A stretch of DNA of 64,000 nucleotides from Planobispora longispora (GTDB lineage: Bacteria; Actinomycetota; Actinomycetes; Streptosporangiales; Streptosporangiaceae). A program made the position numbers and the translations under genes. The stretch spans positions 1-64,000 of the forward strand of contig NZ_BOOH01000063.1 in the NCBI RefSeq assembly GCF_016863135.1, given 5' to 3'. Each line of letters starts with the position of its first letter. Within the stretch, counting starts at the first letter, position 1. Positions 30,325 to 37,731 of the stretch are shown one piece after another. The notes under the pieces are model-generated. The model did not search any database and was not told the origin of the DNA. It saw only the letters and a program-made list of their open reading frames with translations.

Positions 30325-31170
30325 GTGATGCTGCGCACAACGGCGTCGCGCGTACTCGACGACAACGACCGTGACGAGGTTCTGGCGCTTCTCGACGCCG
30401 ACCCCGTCGCCAATGTCTTCGTCGCCTCCAGGGTCCGGTCCGTCGGGCTCAATCCGGCCCGGCTCGGCGGCCAGATGTGGGGATTCGGGTCACGCGGGAC
30501 CCTGACATCCCTCTGTTACTCCGGGGCCAACCTGGTTCCGGTGAACGCCGGTCCCGAGGCGGTGCACGCCTTCGCCGACCGGGCGCGCCGGCAGGGCCGC
30601 CGCTGCTCCTCGGTCGTCGGTCCGATCGACGCGGTCGAGCTGCTCTGGGAGCGGCTGGAGCCGCACTGGGGGCCGGCCCGCGCCGTCCGCTGGGCCCAGC
30701 CCGTCATGGCCACCTCGGCGTATTCGCCGATCCCGTACGACCCGCTGGTGCGGCGGGTGCGGATGGAGGACTTCGAGACCGTCCTGCCGGCCTGCGTGGC
30801 GATGTTCACCGAGGAGGTGGGCGTCTCCCCGGAGGCGGGCGACGGCGGAGCGCTCTACCGCTCGCGGGTCGCCGAGCTGATCAGGATCGGCCGCTCCTAC
30901 GCCCGGATCGACGACGGCACCGTGGTCTTCAAGGCCGAGATCGGCGCGGTCACCCCGCTGGCCTGCCAGATCCAGGGCGTCTGGGTCCACCCCGACCTGC
31001 GCGGCCGGGGCCACGCGGCGGCCGGGATGGCCGCGGTGGTCCGGCAGGCGCTCGACTGCTTCGCCCCGACGGTCACGCTGTACGTCAACGACTACAACGC
31101 CCCGGCCAGGGCCGCCTACCGCAGGGCGGGTTTCAAAGAGGTCGACACCTTCATGTCGGTGCTCTTCTGA
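30325..31170 (+). CDS. GNAT family N-acetyltransferase with DUF4081 N-terminal domain
   Basis: The protein has 281 residues. The N-terminal half is the actinobacterial DUF4081 domain (ANVFVASRV, VVGPIDAVELLWERL). The C-terminal half is a GNAT fold with the acetyl-CoA loop VHPDLRGRGHAAAGM and LYVNDYNAPARAAYRRAGF. In mycobacteria a homologue lies directly downstream of ispG. Start is GTG 30325 or ATG 30328. Its last two codons form the beginning of a tandem DNA repeat. The acceptor substrate is unknown. Confidence 0.9.
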   Translation: MMLRTTASRVLDDNDRDEVLALLDADPVANVFVASRVRSVGLNPARLGGQMWGFGSRGTLTSLCYSGANLVPVNAGPEAVHAFADRARRQGRRCSSVVGPIDAVELLWERLEPHWGPARAVRWAQPVMATSAYSPIPYDPLVRRVRMEDFETVLPACVAMFTEEVGVSPEAGDGGALYRSRVAELIRIGRSYARIDDGTVVFKAEIGAVTPLACQIQGVWVHPDLRGRGHAAAGMAAVVRQALDCFAPTVTLYVNDYNAPARAAYRRAGFKEVDTFMSVLF

Positions 31171-31240
31171 CCCGGTCCCGCGGTTCTGACCCGGTCCCGC
31201 GGTTCTGACCCGGTCCCGCGGTTCTGACCCGGTCCCGTGG
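31165..31240. repeat. Four tandem 19-bp repeats at the end of the GNAT gene
   Basis: TTCTGACCCGGTCCCGCGG occurs four times without gaps (31165, 31184, 31203, 31222; the last has one change). The first copy includes the GNAT stop codon. The array lies between convergent genes. Confidence 0.95.
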
Positions 31241-31257
31241 TGCGGCGGCCCGGAGTC

Positions 31258-31635
31258 TCAGGAGGGCCGCACCAGCCGGTCCATCAGGTGCTCCAGCTCG
31301 CCCTCGGGGGCGTCGGTCAGTCCGGCGTGCACCGGGCCGGCCTGCACGATCGTGCTGCGCGGCGCGGTGAGCCAGCGGAACCGGCTGCCGAGCGACTCCC
31401 TGGACAGCGGGCCCGTGTCGTCGTCGCAGGAGATCCGGTAGGCGTCGAGCGCGTGCCGTACCCCGTCGACGTCGGCGTGGGCGTCGAGCGCGCGCAGCCG
31501 TGCCTCGTCCAGCTCCACCCGCGCGCACAGGTAGTCGCGCGGCTGGCAGTAGAGCAGGATGCCCGCGTTGATCAGCTCGCCGCGTTCGACGCGGGGGACG
31601 ACCCGGATGACGGCGTACTCGTAGACGTCTCTCAT
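31258..31635 (-). CDS. DUF3037 family protein paired with HipA-like kinase
   Basis: The protein has 125 residues and begins YEYAVIRVVPRVERGELINAGILLYC, characteristic of DUF3037. No catalytic motif is recognised. Its ATG overlaps the stop of the HipA-like gene (ATGA), so the two are translated together; association of these two families is known, though their joint role is not. It is the last gene of a four-gene operon beginning at 33465. Confidence 0.88.
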   Translation of the reverse strand: MRDVYEYAVIRVVPRVERGELINAGILLYCQPRDYLCARVELDEARLRALDAHADVDGVRHALDAYRISCDDDTGPLSRESLGSRFRWLTAPRSTIVQAGPVHAGLTDAPEGELEHLMDRLVRPS

Positions 31636-32441
31636 CGGGTGCCCTTCCAGAACGCACCGACCGAACCGGACTTCTTCTCCTGCCGGGGAGCCGCGGAGGG
31701 CTCCGGCAGCCAGGCCCGCGGCCCGTGCGCGCGGGCGAGCAGGTGCCCGGTGTACGCCTCCCGCACGGCCTGCGCGTCGTCGAACCCCGGCTCGTCGGCC
31801 AGCCATTCGTCCGGGACCTCGGCCAGCACCTCGCCGAGGAGCCCGGGGGTGATCCGCTCGCTCAGCTCCGCGTCGGCCTCGGCCATCGCGGTGGCGAAGG
31901 GGGCCAGGACGTGGTCGCCCGCGTCGAAGCCGCGCTGCGGGTCGGCGGTGCGCCAATTGTGGTGGAACCAGAGGGCGGCGCCGTGGTCGATCAGCCAGAC
32001 GTCGCCGTGCCAGAGCAGCAGGTTGGGGTTGCGCCAGCTCCGGTCGACGTTGTGGATCAGCGCGTCGAACCAGAGCAGCCGGGAGGCGAAGGCGGGATCG
32101 GGCGGCCAGGTGAGCGGCTCGAAGCCGAGCGCGCCGGGCAGGAAGTCGACCGCGAGGTTGCGCCCGGCGCTGGCCTTGAGCAGGTCCTGGATCTCCTCGT
32201 CGGGTTCGCGGGCGCCGAGCTGCGGATCGACGTCGACCACCTTCAGCTCGGGGGTGCGGAAGCCGAGCCGCCGGGCCAGCTCGGCACAGACGATCTCCGC
32301 CACCAGCACCCGGCGCCCCTGCCCGGCGCCTCGGAACTTCACGGCGTAGGTGCCGAGGTCGTCGGCCTCCATCACCCCGGGAAGCGACCCGCCCTCACGC
32401 AGCGGCGTGACGTAGCGGGTCGCCGTGATCTCTTCCAGCAC
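31632..32441 (-). CDS. HipA-like kinase family protein (short, without HipB partner)
   Basis: The protein has 269 residues, much shorter than E. coli HipA. The kinase core is recognisable: YAVKFRGAGQG (nucleotide Lys), FDALIHNVDRSWRNPNLLL (catalytic Asp and Asn) and VWLIDHGAAL (metal-binding Asp). It likely phosphorylates a protein or small molecule; classical HipA phosphorylates glutamyl-tRNA synthetase. No HipB-type HTH protein is adjacent. It starts nine bases after an SRPBCC gene and overlaps DUF3037, so these genes are one transcription unit. Confidence 0.87.
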   Translation of the reverse strand: MLEEITATRYVTPLREGGSLPGVMEADDLGTYAVKFRGAGQGRRVLVAEIVCAELARRLGFRTPELKVVDVDPQLGAREPDEEIQDLLKASAGRNLAVDFLPGALGFEPLTWPPDPAFASRLLWFDALIHNVDRSWRNPNLLLWHGDVWLIDHGAALWFHHNWRTADPQRGFDAGDHVLAPFATAMAEADAELSERITPGLLGEVLAEVPDEWLADEPGFDDAQAVREAYTGHLLARAHGPRAWLPEPSAAPRQEKKSGSVGAFWKGTR

Positions 32442-32450
32442 CGGGCCAGG

Positions 32451-33065
32451 CTATCGGGTGGCCCGGTCCCGGATGGCACGCAACATGACCAGCCGGACCA
32501 GGCCGCTGCCCAGCCGGATGATCCGCCAGTATCGGCCCATGGCCCGCCGGGCGTCGGGGCTGGTGGCCAGGATCCTCGTCTCGGTCACCAGACGGATCCG
32601 GCCCGGCCCGGCGTCGTCGAGGAGCAGGAAGTTGAACGTCGCCTTGGCGTAGCCGGGCGTGTCGAACGCCCGGAAGGCGTCGAGGTCCCCGAAGGAGGGG
32701 TCGTGGGAGCCGCCCAGCCGCCACCACTGGCCGATCAGTCCCTGGACCGTCTCGCGGCCGGAGTCCGCGGCCAGCTGGGTGAAGGGGAAGGACGGAGTGC
32801 TCCCCTGACCGCGGGCGTCCCCTGGTCCGAGGCCGTTCCCTGGTCCGCGGCCGTTCTCCTGTCCGTGCCCGCCCCGCCGCCCGTGGCCGCCGCGGAGCCG
32901 GGAGGCCAGCTCGCGGATGGCGAAGAGCGGCCGGGCCGCCCGCAGGTCCGTCGGGTTCAGCGTGGTCACCGCGTCCCAGACCCGCTCGCGCGAGGCGGTG
33001 ATGGTGATCTCGTGCCGTTCGGCGAAGTCGGGGCGGGCGATGATCTGGTCAGTCAACGTCCGCAC
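32451..33065 (-). CDS. SRPBCC superfamily protein with Gly-rich insertion
   Basis: The protein has 204 residues. Start-domain-like features are ITITASRERVWDAVTTL, FNFLLLDDAG and RIRLVTETRILA. An inserted Gly/Arg-rich stretch (about residues 60-90, RGGHGRRGGHGQENGRG) is encoded by imperfect DNA repeats and is probably disordered. It overlaps the preceding SRPBCC gene by 17 bp and is nine bp before the HipA-like gene. It may bind a hydrophobic ligand; the ligand is unknown. Confidence 0.82.
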   Translation of the reverse strand: MRTLTDQIIARPDFAERHEITITASRERVWDAVTTLNPTDLRAARPLFAIRELASRLRGGHGRRGGHGQENGRGPGNGLGPGDARGQGSTPSFPFTQLAADSGRETVQGLIGQWWRLGGSHDPSFGDLDAFRAFDTPGYAKATFNFLLLDDAGPGRIRLVTETRILATSPDARRAMGRYWRIIRLGSGLVRLVMLRAIRDRATR

Positions 33066-33465
33066 GGCTGGCCTCCCGCTCCAGGTTGTCCAGGAGCCGC
33101 TCCAGGACGGCGTCGTGCTGCCAGCGGATCAGCACCGGCCACAGCAGCCGGAACAGGCCCGTGGTGCGTCCCTTGATCTCGTGCCGGACGAGGGTGCCGC
33201 CCTCGGCGGGGTGGAGCGTGAAGCCGTGCCCGCCGGTCATCTCCTTGGTGTCGAACCAGATCCTGCGGCAGGGCTCGACGGCCCCCACCCGGTAGCGCAT
33301 CGGGTCGTGCTCGACGGGGGCGCCGGGCTTGACGCCCTCGGGGAGGTGGAAGCGGCCCTTCTCCTGCGGCCAGAGCGGGTCTCCCGGGCCGCCGAGGTTC
33401 ATGAGCAGCTCCCAGACCCGCTCGGGAGACGCGGGGACGACGCGTTCGTGCATGTTGTAGACCAC
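33049..33465 (-). CDS. SRPBCC superfamily protein, first gene of the HipA-like operon
   Basis: The protein has 138 residues from a GTG that has GGAGG seven bases upstream; longer starts would run through the operator. Typical SRPBCC segments are VVPASPERVWELLMNLGG, RIWFDTKEMTGGHGFTL and GTLVRHEIKGRT. It leads four genes (SRPBCC, SRPBCC, HipA-like, DUF3037) whose spacing is overlap or under ten bases. Two palindromes matching one before a nearby TetR gene lie just upstream. Confidence 0.85.
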   Translation of the reverse strand: MVYNMHERVVPASPERVWELLMNLGGPGDPLWPQEKGRFHLPEGVKPGAPVEHDPMRYRVGAVEPCRRIWFDTKEMTGGHGFTLHPAEGGTLVRHEIKGRTTGLFRLLWPVLIRWQHDAVLERLLDNLEREASRADVD

Positions 33466-33474
33466 GAGCCACCT

Positions 33475-33515
33475 CCATACGGTTGCGTATGGTTCGACTA
33501 TACGCCCGCGTATGG
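33475..33515. promoter_or_regulatory. Twin TetR-type operators before the SRPBCC/HipA-like operon
   Basis: CCATACGGTTGCGTATGG (33475-33492) is a perfect 7-4-7 palindrome. CTATACGCCCGCGTATGG (33498-33515) is a second copy with one arm mismatch, 23 bp away start to start. An almost identical site (34661-34678) precedes the TetR gene at 34691. Confidence 0.85.
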
Positions 33516-33636
33516 AAGGGGTGCGGAGGGGCCCCGGGTCGGGGCGTGCGCGCGCCGCCTCCGAGGTGGGGAGCCGGGCGGCGGCCCGGTCGCGCGGCGT
33601 GGTCATGACCCCGGGACACGTGGGGAGAGTGATTTT

Positions 33637-33683
33637 TCTAACGGCAAAATATCTATTGACCCGTTAGATGCTCATCCGTTAGA
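33637..33683. promoter_or_regulatory. CCGTTAGA repeats in the promoter of the alpha/beta hydrolase
   Basis: TCTAACGG at 33637-33644 is the inverse of CCGTTAGA at 33661-33668 and 33676-33683; the direct pair is 15 bp apart. A TTGACC box (33656) and TAGAAC (33680), 18 bp apart, could be the promoter, which the repeats would overlap. Confidence 0.5.
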
Positions 33684-33728
33684 ACTGATCGGGTCAGTCC
33701 CTCCGGCAGGCCCGTGAAAGGCGTTGAG

Positions 33729-34604
33729 ATGAGGCTCCTGGACGTCCCCCGCACCGCGCACCGCCACATCGAGGTCGACGGGGTGCGGGTCTTCTACCGC
33801 GACTCGTCGCCGGCCCGGCCCGACGCGCCGGTTATGTTGCTGCTGCACGGCTTCCCGTCGGCCTCGCACCAGTTCCGCCGGCTCATCGACGTCCTGGGCG
33901 GGCGGTACCGCCTGATCGCTCCGGACTACCCCGGGTTCGGGCACACCGAGGTCCCGGAGGGGTTCGCCTACGGCTTCGACCGGCTCGCTGACGTCATGGA
34001 GGGCTTCGTCGAGCGGCTCGGCCTGACCCGGTTCGTGATGTACGTCTTCGACTTCGGCGCCCCCATCGGCTTCCGGCTGGCGACCCGCCGCCCCGAGTGG
34101 ATCGCGGGCCTGGTCGTCCAGAACGGCAACGCCTACGAGGAGGGGCTGTCGCCGCAGGCCCGCGACTTCATCGCGCTGCGTCCGGAGGACGACGGCGCCG
34201 AGGAGACCGTCCGCGGCCTGCTGACGCTCCCGGCGACCCGGGGCCAGTACGAGGGCGGGACCGGCCACGCCGAACTGGTCGCCCCCGACGGCTGGACGCT
34301 CGACCAGCACTTCCTCGACCTGCCGGGGCGCAAGGAGGCCCAGGTCGCGCTGGCCTTCGACTACCACGCCAACGTCGGGATGTACCCGCTCTGGCACGCC
34401 TGGCTGCGCGAGCACGTCCCGCCCACGCTCATCGCCTGGGGCCGGGGCGACCCGTTCTTCACCGAGCGGGGCGCCCGTGCCTACCTGCGCGACCTGCCGG
34501 AGGCCGAGCTCCACATCCTGGACACCGGTCACTTCGCGCTGGAGGAGAAACTCCCCGAGATCGCCCCGCTGATCGCGGACTTCCTCGACCGCGTCTGGAC
34601 GTGA
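33729..34604 (+). CDS. Alpha/beta hydrolase, epoxide hydrolase / haloalkane dehalogenase type
   Basis: The protein has about 291 residues (ATG 33729; GTG 33714 possible). The oxyanion motif is LLHGFPSASHQFRRL. The nucleophile elbow reads VFDFGAPIGFRLA, with Asp rather than Ser, as in epoxide hydrolases and dehalogenases. A late Asp in WGRGDPFF and the His in DTGHFALEE complete the triad. It lies between the SRPBCC/HipA-like operon and the TetR gene sharing operators with it, and may belong to the same function. The substrate is unknown. Confidence 0.9.
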   Translation: MRLLDVPRTAHRHIEVDGVRVFYRDSSPARPDAPVMLLLHGFPSASHQFRRLIDVLGGRYRLIAPDYPGFGHTEVPEGFAYGFDRLADVMEGFVERLGLTRFVMYVFDFGAPIGFRLATRRPEWIAGLVVQNGNAYEEGLSPQARDFIALRPEDDGAEETVRGLLTLPATRGQYEGGTGHAELVAPDGWTLDQHFLDLPGRKEAQVALAFDYHANVGMYPLWHAWLREHVPPTLIAWGRGDPFFTERGARAYLRDLPEAELHILDTGHFALEEKLPEIAPLIADFLDRVWT

Positions 34605-34660
34605 CGCCCGGCGCGGGCGGCGGAATGTGGGCGGCTCCAGCGCGGTCGCGCGCGAGCCGG

Positions 34661-34678
34661 CCATACGCCCGCGTATGG
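34661..34678. promoter_or_regulatory. Palindromic operator before tetR
   Basis: CCATACGCCCGCGTATGG is a perfect 7-4-7 palindrome ending 12 bases before the TetR start. It matches the twin sites at 33475-33515, so TetR probably represses itself and the divergent operon. Confidence 0.85.
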
Positions 34679-34690
34679 AAGACTGGCCGG

Positions 34691-35236
34691 ATGGCACGGT
34701 TGAGCGCGGAGGACTGGGCGACGGCGGCGCTGGAGGCGCTGGCCGAGGGCGGCCTGGCGGCCGTCGCGGTGGAGCCGGTGGCGGTACGGCTCGGCGCCAC
34801 CAAGGGCAGCTTCTACTGGCACTTCGCCAACCGCCGGGCGCTGGTCGAGGCCGCGCTCACCCGCTGGGAGGCCGGGACCGAGGAGATCATCGCCGGGCTG
34901 TCGGAGATCCCCGACCCGGTCCTGCGCATGCGCACGCTGCTGGAGTTCGCCTTCGGCGACCCGGTGGACTCCAAGATCGCCTTCCAGCTGATCAGCGCGG
35001 CCGACGACCCGCTCGTCGCCGAGACGGCCCGCCGGGTGAGCGCGCGGCGGCTGGAGTTCATGCAGGCGGTCCTGGAGGAGGCCGGGCAGCCGCCCGAGCT
35101 CGCCCGGGGACGCGCCGTGGTGGGCTACAGCGTCTACCTCGGCATGGCCTCGCTGCACCGGGTCGGCGCGGTGGACGAGCCCATCGGCGCCTTCATGGAC
35201 CTGGCCCTGTCGGAGATGGGGCTCGCGGGCTCCTGA
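34691..35236 (+). CDS. TetR family regulator, probable repressor of the SRPBCC/HipA-like operon
   Basis: The protein has 181 residues. The N-terminal HTH includes VEPVAVRLGATKGSFYWHFANRRALVEAAL (the recognition helix around KGSFYWHF). The C-terminal ligand domain is short and contains GYSVYLGMASLHRVG. The operator just upstream indicates autoregulation, and the same motif occurs twice before the minus-strand operon at 33465. The ribosome site is weak. The inducer may be the substrate or product of the adjacent hydrolase (inference). Confidence 0.9.
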   Translation: MARLSAEDWATAALEALAEGGLAAVAVEPVAVRLGATKGSFYWHFANRRALVEAALTRWEAGTEEIIAGLSEIPDPVLRMRTLLEFAFGDPVDSKIAFQLISAADDPLVAETARRVSARRLEFMQAVLEEAGQPPELARGRAVVGYSVYLGMASLHRVGAVDEPIGAFMDLALSEMGLAGS

Positions 35237-35245
35237 GCCCGCCCC

Positions 35246-35384
35246 GGAGACCAGATGGGAAGCGCGCCCTCCCGGGAGACCAGACGGGAAGCGCGCCCCC
35301 CGGGAGACCAGACGGGAAGCGCGCCCCCCCGGGAGACCAGACGGGAAGCGCGCCTCCGGAGAACACCCGGGGGCGCGCTTCCCG
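35246..35384. repeat. Four 28-29 bp tandem repeats ending in a 13-bp hairpin
   Basis: Units beginning GGAGACCAGA start at 35246, 35275, 35303 and 35332, each holding a GGGAAGCGCGCC core. The last core (CGGGAAGCGCGCC, 35342-35354) pairs perfectly with an inverted copy at 35372-35384. The hairpin separates convergent genes and probably terminates transcription in both directions; any of the four left arms could pair with the one right arm. Confidence 0.85.
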
Positions 35385-36390: not shown

Positions 36391-36495
36391 GGTGCGAGGA
36401 GTCTCCGGGGCCGGTCGGTGAACTCGGTGCGAGGAGTTTCCGGGGCCGGTCGGTGAACTCGGTGCGATGAGTCTCCGGGGTCAGTCGGCGAACTC
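36391..36495. repeat. Three 35-bp tandem repeats overlapping the 3' end of an LLM gene
   Basis: Units begin GGTGCGA at 36391, 36426 and 36461 with a constant 35-bp period and few changes. The third contains the last codons and stop of the LLM gene ending at 36481, so the 3' end of the gene appears to have been copied outward twice. Confidence 0.92.
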
Positions 36496-37731
36496 GGGGA
36501 TGACCTTGGTGGCGAAGAGTTCGAGGTTGCGCTTGACGGTGTCGAGCGGGAGCACGCCCTGCTGGCCCTGCATGAACAGGCCGAACCACTCCAGGTCGGG
36601 CATCCGGTCGAGCATGCGCTGGATGCCGCGCTTGACGTCGTCGGGGCCGCCCAGCAGGGCCATCTCGACCTCGTTCATGCGCTTGAAGTCGCCCTTCTCC
36701 GGGCTGATCGGCTTGTGCTTGTCGTCCTCCTGCTTGCGCAGGACCTCCAGGTAGCCGAACGGGCCGAAGAAGGCGGCGAAGTCCTTCTGCATGCCCTTGC
36801 CGTAGGTGGCGATGGCCTCCTCGCGGGTGTCGGCCATACCGACGATCTTGAGGATGCCGGTGTGCTCGCCCAGCTTGTAGTCCCGGCCGCACTTGGCCGA
36901 CTCCTCCTGGTAGAGCTTGGCCTTGGCGGCGTGCTCGTCCGGGTTCGGGGTGAACATCCAGGGCAGGATGTCCTCCTGGGCGGCGCGGATCACCGAGCGG
37001 TCGGAGATGGTGAACGGCTGCCACAGCTCCGGGTAGGGGTTCTGGTACGGCTTGGGCCCGACCGAGACCGCGTGGATGCGGCCCTGCTCGTCCACCTCGC
37101 CGGGGGCGCCGAACGTCCGCGTCCACTCCAGCGCCGGCCAGCCCTCGATCCCCTCGTACGGCGAGGGCACCTCGTAGTCCAGCACGTCCGACTTGTAGCG
37201 CAGGGTGTCCTGGGTCCACGCCATCTTCATGATCTTCAGCACCTCGCCGAAGACGTCGAAGTTGCGGGTGTCGGAGGCCGAGCCGTCGGAGCGGGCCGCG
37301 GCGGCGTGCCAGCGCTGGCCGAGCACGTTCATCCACCGGTTCTGGTAGCCGCGGGCCACGCCCAGGCGGAGCCGGCCCCTGCTGAAGTGGTCCAGCAGCG
37401 CCACGTCCTCGGCGGCGCGGATCGGGTCCCAGGCCGGCAGCACGATGCCCAGCGGGGCCAGCAGGATGCGCTCGGTCCTGGCGGCCAGGTCGGTGAGGAA
37501 CATCAGCGGGTTGACCGAGAACTCGAAGCCCTCGGAGTGGAAGTGGTGCTCGGTCATCATGAGCGCGTCGAAGCCGATCTGGTCGGCGTGGACCGCGATC
37601 TCGCGCACCTCGTGCAGCAGCGCCTGGTAGGACTCGATGTCCCGCCCGATCGGCCGCTTGGCGACGGCGTTCTCCTCCTGGGAGTAGCCCGAGCCGGGAA
37701 TCTGCGGGTTGAGGAATATCGAGAACTTCAC
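36481..37731 (-). CDS. LLM class flavin-dependent monooxygenase (long type)
   Basis: The protein has 416 residues. The luciferase-like barrel is shown by ALMMTEHHFHSEGFEFSVNP, ILLAPLGIVLPAWDPIRAAE, and HFSRGRLRLGVARGYQ. The length and late segment (QDFAAFFGPFGY-like, LEWFGLFMQGQQGV) resemble the alkanal/limonene monooxygenase-like branch. GTG at 37731 overlaps the stop of the alpha/beta hydrolase gene by four bases and has AAGGAG nine bases upstream, so the two are coupled. Substrate unknown. Confidence 0.92.
   Translation of the reverse strand: MKFSIFLNPQIPGSGYSQEENAVAKRPIGRDIESYQALLHEVREIAVHADQIGFDALMMTEHHFHSEGFEFSVNPLMFLTDLAARTERILLAPLGIVLPAWDPIRAAEDVALLDHFSRGRLRLGVARGYQNRWMNVLGQRWHAAAARSDGSASDTRNFDVFGEVLKIMKMAWTQDTLRYKSDVLDYEVPSPYEGIEGWPALEWTRTFGAPGEVDEQGRIHAVSVGPKPYQNPYPELWQPFTISDRSVIRAAQEDILPWMFTPNPDEHAAKAKLYQEESAKCGRDYKLGEHTGILKIVGMADTREEAIATYGKGMQKDFAAFFGPFGYLEVLRKQEDDKHKPISPEKGDFKRMNEVEMALLGGPDDVKRGIQRMLDRMPDLEWFGLFMQGQQGVLPLDTVKRNLELFATKVIPEFAD

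Follow-up and report, generated by a model that had tools for sequence, protein, structure and literature searches.

The locus lies at positions 31258 to 35236 of a 64,000-nucleotide stretch of Planobispora longispora DNA (contig NZ_BOOH01000063.1), and we refer to the whole stretch that was analysed as the window. Four closely packed genes on the minus strand encode, in the order of transcription, two SRPBCC-type proteins (SRP1 and SRP2), a HipA-like kinase and a DUF3037 protein, while the plus strand carries the genes of an alpha/beta hydrolase and of a TetR-family protein. The genes, together with the promoter and operator elements assigned to them, are the following.

31258-31635, minus strand: DUF3037 protein, 125 amino acids, single domain (PF11236, 4e-42; PADLOC PDC-M66B, 1.7e-7).
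31632-32441, minus strand: HipA_2 (HipA-like) kinase, 269 amino acids, GTG start (PF20613, 4.6e-17; PDC-M66A, 1.3e-16).
32448-32453, minus strand: predicted -10 element of the kinase gene itself, TAGCCT, at -12 to -7, leaderless (based on TANNNT conservation among homologues).
32451-33065, minus strand: SRP2, second SRPBCC-type protein (weak hhalign match to the SRP1 profile, 88%).
About 33049-33465, minus strand: SRP1, SRPBCC/polyketide-cyclase-like, GTG start (PF10604, Polyketide_cyc2, 7.1e-6, just under the cut-off).
33472-33476, minus strand: Shine-Dalgarno sequence of SRP1, GGAGG.
33475-33492: predicted operator site 1, exact palindrome, kept in the same place in aligned divergent promoters.
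33497-33502, minus strand: presumed -10 element of SRP1, TATAGT (TANNNT here in 20/21 close orthologous promoters).
33498-33515: predicted operator site 2, one mismatch, 23 bp from site 1 (spacing of 23-25 bp conserved).
33637-33668: another operator-like palindrome, TCTAACGG-N16-CCGTTAGA, overlapping the TTGACC/TAGAAC promoter-like pair of the hydrolase gene.
33714-34604, plus strand: alpha/beta hydrolase, Asp-nucleophile type by sequence (PF00561, Abhydrolase_1, 3.3e-31).
34661-34678: predicted operator site 3, exact palindrome, directly upstream of the TetR -10 element.
34679-34684, plus strand: presumed -10 element of the TetR gene, AAGACT, 6 nt before the ATG, leaderless (hexamer and spacing kept across orthologous loci).
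34691-35236, plus strand: predicted TetR-family autorepressor (PF00440, TetR_N, 4.4e-11).

The palindromes, the four tightly spaced genes, the hydrolase and the TetR gene of the original prediction are all found where it had placed them, with one correction: CCATACG-N4-CGTATGG is exact at 33475-33492 and 34661-34678, but the site at 33498-33515 reads CTATACG and thus carries one mismatch. The gene spacing, given there as overlap or under ten bases, is also accurate, since the DUF3037 and kinase genes overlap by 4 bp (ATGA), a gap of 9 bp separates the kinase gene from SRP2, and SRP2 and SRP1 overlap by 17 bp. The kinase of P. rosea is 94% identical to that of the window, and the gene order is the same. 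Three short tandem-repeat arrays (31165-31241, 35237-35354 and 36391-36497; periods 19, 29 and 35) are intergenic and flank the kinase, TetR and LLM genes.

The operator palindrome and the TetR-SRPBCC cassette

The operator palindrome is highly specific. In the 8.84-Mb genome, it occurs with at most one mismatch in four places only, namely the three of the window and C9:76393. The latter, which is the genome's only exact palindrome outside the window, lies immediately upstream of an SRPBCC-type gene, the sole other homologue of SRP1 in the genome (42% identical), and its geometry is that of site 1: palindrome, then Shine-Dalgarno sequence, then start. We therefore take the palindrome to mark an SRPBCC regulon. 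A scan of 251 family genomes found it in exact form 32 times, in 25 of them, compared with 2 occurrences of the reversed control pattern, and a reading of the neighbouring genes places 30 of the 32 beside related TetR, SRPBCC-type or DUF2867 genes. We found no literature on SRPBCC-TetR operators with this sequence. At four loci of related genomes (L173, L183, L184 and L188), palindromes of this type stand upstream of DUF2867 genes, at L188 next to a TetR paralogue; these palindromes suggest a wider operator family joining TetR paralogues to SRPBCC/DUF2867 proteins.

TetR orthologues with at least 60% identity occur, together with the palindromes, in 18 of the 251 genomes. The usual arrangement is a compact divergent promoter in which two sites are spaced by 23-25 bp. 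On the SRP strand, the TANNNT hexamer conserved in 20 of 21 close orthologous promoters is mostly TATAGT and sits at the inner edge of site 2; it is a conserved one-base departure from the palindrome that makes this -10 element, which explains why site 2 is usually imperfect. Site 1 spans the presumed transcription start of SRP1 and touches the edge of its Shine-Dalgarno sequence, and on the TetR side an AAGACT-like hexamer lies 6 nt before the start codon and abuts its operator. The operators therefore overlie promoter elements of both SRP1 and TetR, so that binding of TetR would shut both genes. Planobispora and one relative (G083) have three sites instead of two: in the same-genus genomes G001 and G003 all three fall within about 100 bp, and in the window, in G002 and in P. 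rosea, sites 2 and 3 are separated by the hydrolase gene. In five further genomes (G006, G122, G178, G238 and G248), the cassette is present without the kinase. We consider it well supported that the TetR protein is an autoregulator that would control the SRPBCC genes through the palindrome, and TetR plus SRPBCC are predicted to be a stand-alone cassette. The original prediction of TetR-controlled SRPBCC genes is backed both by palindromes that track TetR, SRPBCC and DUF2867 genes and by the conserved divergent promoter.

In the proposed mechanism, TetR would bind two sites 23 bp apart, at the -10/start region of SRP1, as well as the upstream edge of its own -10 element. A small, probably hydrophobic ligand would release it, and this release would induce SRP1 (plus SRP2) and, in trans, the second SRPBCC gene elsewhere on the chromosome. 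Since related TetR paralogues of the family use near-identical sites, one of them could be supposed to bind the palindromes in place of the adjacent TetR; however, the sites travel with orthologues of the adjacent TetR, within a shared divergent promoter and at a fixed spacing, and the genome holds no second TetR of comparable similarity, which makes this very unlikely. The adjacent TetR is thus retained as the presumed regulator. In one other genome, an SRP2 homologue sits at a different chromosomal location, behind a two-site divergent promoter of its own (L176, at G240:C5:120384, and L152), and the TetR orthologue remains beside the kinase, where the sites are degenerate.

SRP2 gave no Pfam match and nothing convincing in the PDB, and its assignment to the SRPBCC proteins is tentative, following a weak profile match to SRP1 (88%, hhalign). 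The tandem repeat at 32816-32865 within the gene encodes a low-complexity insertion of about 26 amino acids that is absent from all aligned relatives. Compared with its G002 orthologue, SRP2 has a dN/dS of about 1.0, indicating relaxed constraint, and the gene was not found in G001, G003, G018 and G100. With a dN/dS near 1, the insertion and the absence from several relatives, SRP2 is apparently dispensable. In the same comparison of the window with G002, the kinase, SRP1, TetR and GNAT genes have dN/dS values of about 0.17-0.25, and DUF3037 has too few changes for a judgement.

The hydrolase gene sits inside the divergent SRP1/TetR promoter and is absent in the same-genus genomes G001 and G003. 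Its upstream palindrome, TCTAACGG-N16-CCGTTAGA, is largely conserved in G002 and has one other exact copy in the genome (C47:24272-24303, locus L191), before a DUF1348 (NTF2/SnoaL-like) gene; the hydrolase and the DUF1348 gene may form a separate two-gene regulon. Membership of the hydrolase in the TetR regulon was considered and rejected on two grounds, its different operator and its absence from sister species, and the original joining of this gene to the TetR, SRPBCC and kinase genes is for the same reasons unsupported. Most likely, the hydrolase is a separate unit, which would have the further operator and the promoter-like sequence as its own.

The kinase gene and its relation to the cassette

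The original prediction overlooked a promoter-like sequence that runs across the 9-bp junction between SRP2 and the kinase gene. The upstream sequences of kinase homologues share little but TAGCCT (or TAACCT, TACCCT), with 6-7 nt between its end and the start codon. TANNNT stands at -12/-13 before 77 of the 87 actinobacterial homologues, among them 46 of the 47 closer ones, against 0-1 of 87 in comparable control windows farther upstream, and it is kept both in loci with the cassette (the window, G001-G003, G018, L053, L059 and others) and in loci without it. The kinase gene has this hexamer about 12 nt before its start codon and lacks a Shine-Dalgarno sequence; TANNNT at about this distance is the signature of leaderless genes in Actinobacteria (PMC3160421). 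The TAG of TAGCCT also serves SRP2 as its stop codon, and the remainder of the promoter makes up the 9-bp gap. We infer that the kinase gene is served by a conserved leaderless promoter of its own, TAGCCT-N6-GTG, and since this predicted promoter spans the junction, the close spacing is real yet no proof of TetR control. On the sequence evidence, the supposition that the kinase pair lacks a separate promoter is contradicted by this element and its conservation.

Of the 37 family genomes sampled, 28 encode the kinase, which has a reach that extends to Bacteroidota and is a single copy in nearly all genomes. DUF3037 is adjacent to it in 76 of 80 named loci; the strict pairing and the overlap are seen from Actinomycetota to Bacteroidota, and the 4-bp ATGA overlap is kept in most of the actinobacteria examined. 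The position of the pair is fixed beside GNAT-IspG across Streptosporangiaceae, near the same GNAT gene in 27 of 29 loci. The majority of these loci have no SRPBCC gene, TetR gene or palindrome, and gene-neighbourhood comparison indicates that HipA_2-DUF3037 is an older, fixed locus, usually without the cassette. The gene set that was originally taken as one operon is accordingly not conserved in full in related genomes: the kinase pair is mostly found alone, and the orientation of the cassette varies. In Nonomuraea endophytica and N. typhae (L050 and L055), the SRPBCC genes face away from the kinase, in the opposite orientation to that of the window.

Taken together, the kinase gene's own promoter, the prevalence of pairs without the cassette, the variable orientation and the different operator of the hydrolase gene lead us to regard the locus as probably made up of two adjacent transcription units that are independent of each other, or three if the hydrolase is counted, including the TetR-SRPBCC cassette and the kinase pair. 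Our statements on promoters, binding and function are drawn from sequence. Of the single TetR-controlled system that had been predicted, the TetR-SRPBCC part is thus upheld, and the kinase pair, with its own predicted promoter and mostly without the cassette, and the hydrolase probably fall outside it.

Against separate units stands the linkage of the two: of the 18 genomes that have a close TetR orthologue, 13 carry the kinase pair no more than about 2 kb away (the remaining 5 are without the kinase). This linkage, the 9-bp and overlapping junctions and the placement of the cassette immediately before the kinase, on the same strand, in the window and in G001-G003, G018, G100, G083, G120, G125, G272, L053 and L059 would also be expected from one TetR operon in which a small molecule induces the SRPBCC proteins and the kinase/DUF3037 pair alike, as the ligand-triggered or self-limiting system first proposed. 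We consider such an operon improbable, given that the kinase promoter is conserved and independent, most kinase homologues are without the cassette, its orientation is opposite in L050/L055, SRP2 is decayed or lost in sister species, and the linkage fits one insertion event. The TetR protein tree allows for one ancestral insertion, with a linkage that was later broken up, although its inner forks are weakly supported, and selection may also have favoured the linkage. Repeated independent recruitment of the kinase linkage was also considered and is not supported by the tree, which fits one origin, though not decisively.

A second point against separate units is that the 9-bp gap leaves no room for a terminator, and some read-through from the TetR-controlled SRP promoter into the kinase pair is therefore likely in this lineage. 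The extended proposal, that in the Planobispora lineage the ligand-sensing cassette 9 bp upstream adds ligand-induced read-through to the pair's own promoter and thereby gives small-molecule-tuned growth arrest or phage defence, seems to us unlikely, if slightly less so than the single operon.

Structure and possible function of the kinase/DUF3037 pair

The kinase-type residues K35, E49, D133, N140 and D152 are invariant in 32 homologues from several phyla. When searched by sequence, the kinase had no match among solved structures, and for this reason it was compared by fold; its model matches CtkA with a Z of 15.5 and HipA with a Z of about 11-12. In the 126 codons searched for the DUF3037 protein, the single domain extends over residues 8-123. 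The AlphaFold model of this protein is confident (pLDDT 95.8), but no solved structure matched it convincingly (best Foldseek E 1.0, best VIA Z 3.5). The C-terminal DNA-binding part present in DS-6B and Retron-Sda1 is absent from this 125-amino-acid protein. There is no gene for a HipB helix-turn-helix antitoxin beside the kinase, whose neighbours are the DUF3037 and SRPBCC-type genes. As the DUF3037 protein is short and lacks a DNA-binding part, HipBA-style autoregulation is not expected.

In published relatives of the pair, the kinase is a toxin neutralised by DUF3037, and the pair protects against phage (PMC12548924, PMC13092281). Both proteins of the window match the PADLOC PDC-M66 models, with modest scores. 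The HipA_2 kinase and DUF3037 would be co-transcribed from their own leaderless promoter as a resident kinase/neutraliser pair, in which the kinase is probably a toxin that arrests growth unless DUF3037 restrains it. Such a reading of the two proteins as toxin plus neutraliser agrees with the published work; for the window's pair, we give it about an even chance, since those relatives are distant and their DUF3037 protein is longer.

A somewhat less probable, still serious alternative is that the pair consists of a resident regulatory or housekeeping kinase and its partner, with no role as toxin-antitoxin or phage-defence pair. The fixed spot beside GNAT-IspG across Streptosporangiaceae, with one copy per genome in nearly all, would suit such a role, and so would purifying selection on the kinase resembling that on the neighbouring GNAT gene, the lack of a DNA-binding domain in DUF3037 and a closest fold that is CtkA, not HipA. 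It has to be set against the toxicity of the relatives without DUF3037 and their phage defence (PMC12548924, PMC13092281), the matches to PDC-M66 and the strict, overlapping pairing from Actinomycetota to Bacteroidota, all of which favour the toxin and neutraliser.

These results matter in several respects. An apparent four-gene operon can be two units, with a junction that hides a promoter in a stop codon, and a precise operator regulon is defined for the TetR-SRPBCC cassette. Moreover, a HipA-like kinase/DUF3037 pair of the kind known from phage defence also exists in a chromosomally fixed, apparently leaderless and single-domain form, which spans Streptosporangiaceae and further actinobacteria and raises the question of whether the pair serves in defence there in the first place.

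Comparison with known systems

The TetR-SRPBCC cassette resembles other TetR autoregulators with a divergent target in its divergent promoter, in palindromic operators lying over both promoters and in target proteins of a small-ligand type. It differs from typical members in that the target is an SRPBCC/DUF2867-type protein and not an efflux pump, and in that this lineage has a third operator and a set split by the hydrolase gene.

With HipBA, the pair shares the HipA-type kinase fold (Z about 11-12) and a small partner gene. In contrast to HipBA, there is no HipB-type antitoxin, the toxin gene comes first, and the kinase is shorter, with a model that aligns to the HipA core only and a fold closer to CtkA (Z 15.5).

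The nearest likeness is to HipAD, DS-6 and PDC-M66, which have the same two domains, the kinase first, and adjacent or overlapping genes (PMC13092281, PMC12548924); as in HipAD and PDC-M66, the kinase-type residues are intact. DS-6B and Retron-Sda1 carry a DUF1829 or winged-helix part, whereas the window's DUF3037 has neither. We therefore place the window's pair, provisionally, in the same type as HipAD and PDC-M66, and do not claim it as an orthologue of DS-6. Compared with HipAD and PDC-M66, it is distinguished by its chromosomally fixed position, its non-defence neighbours and its predicted leaderless promoter.
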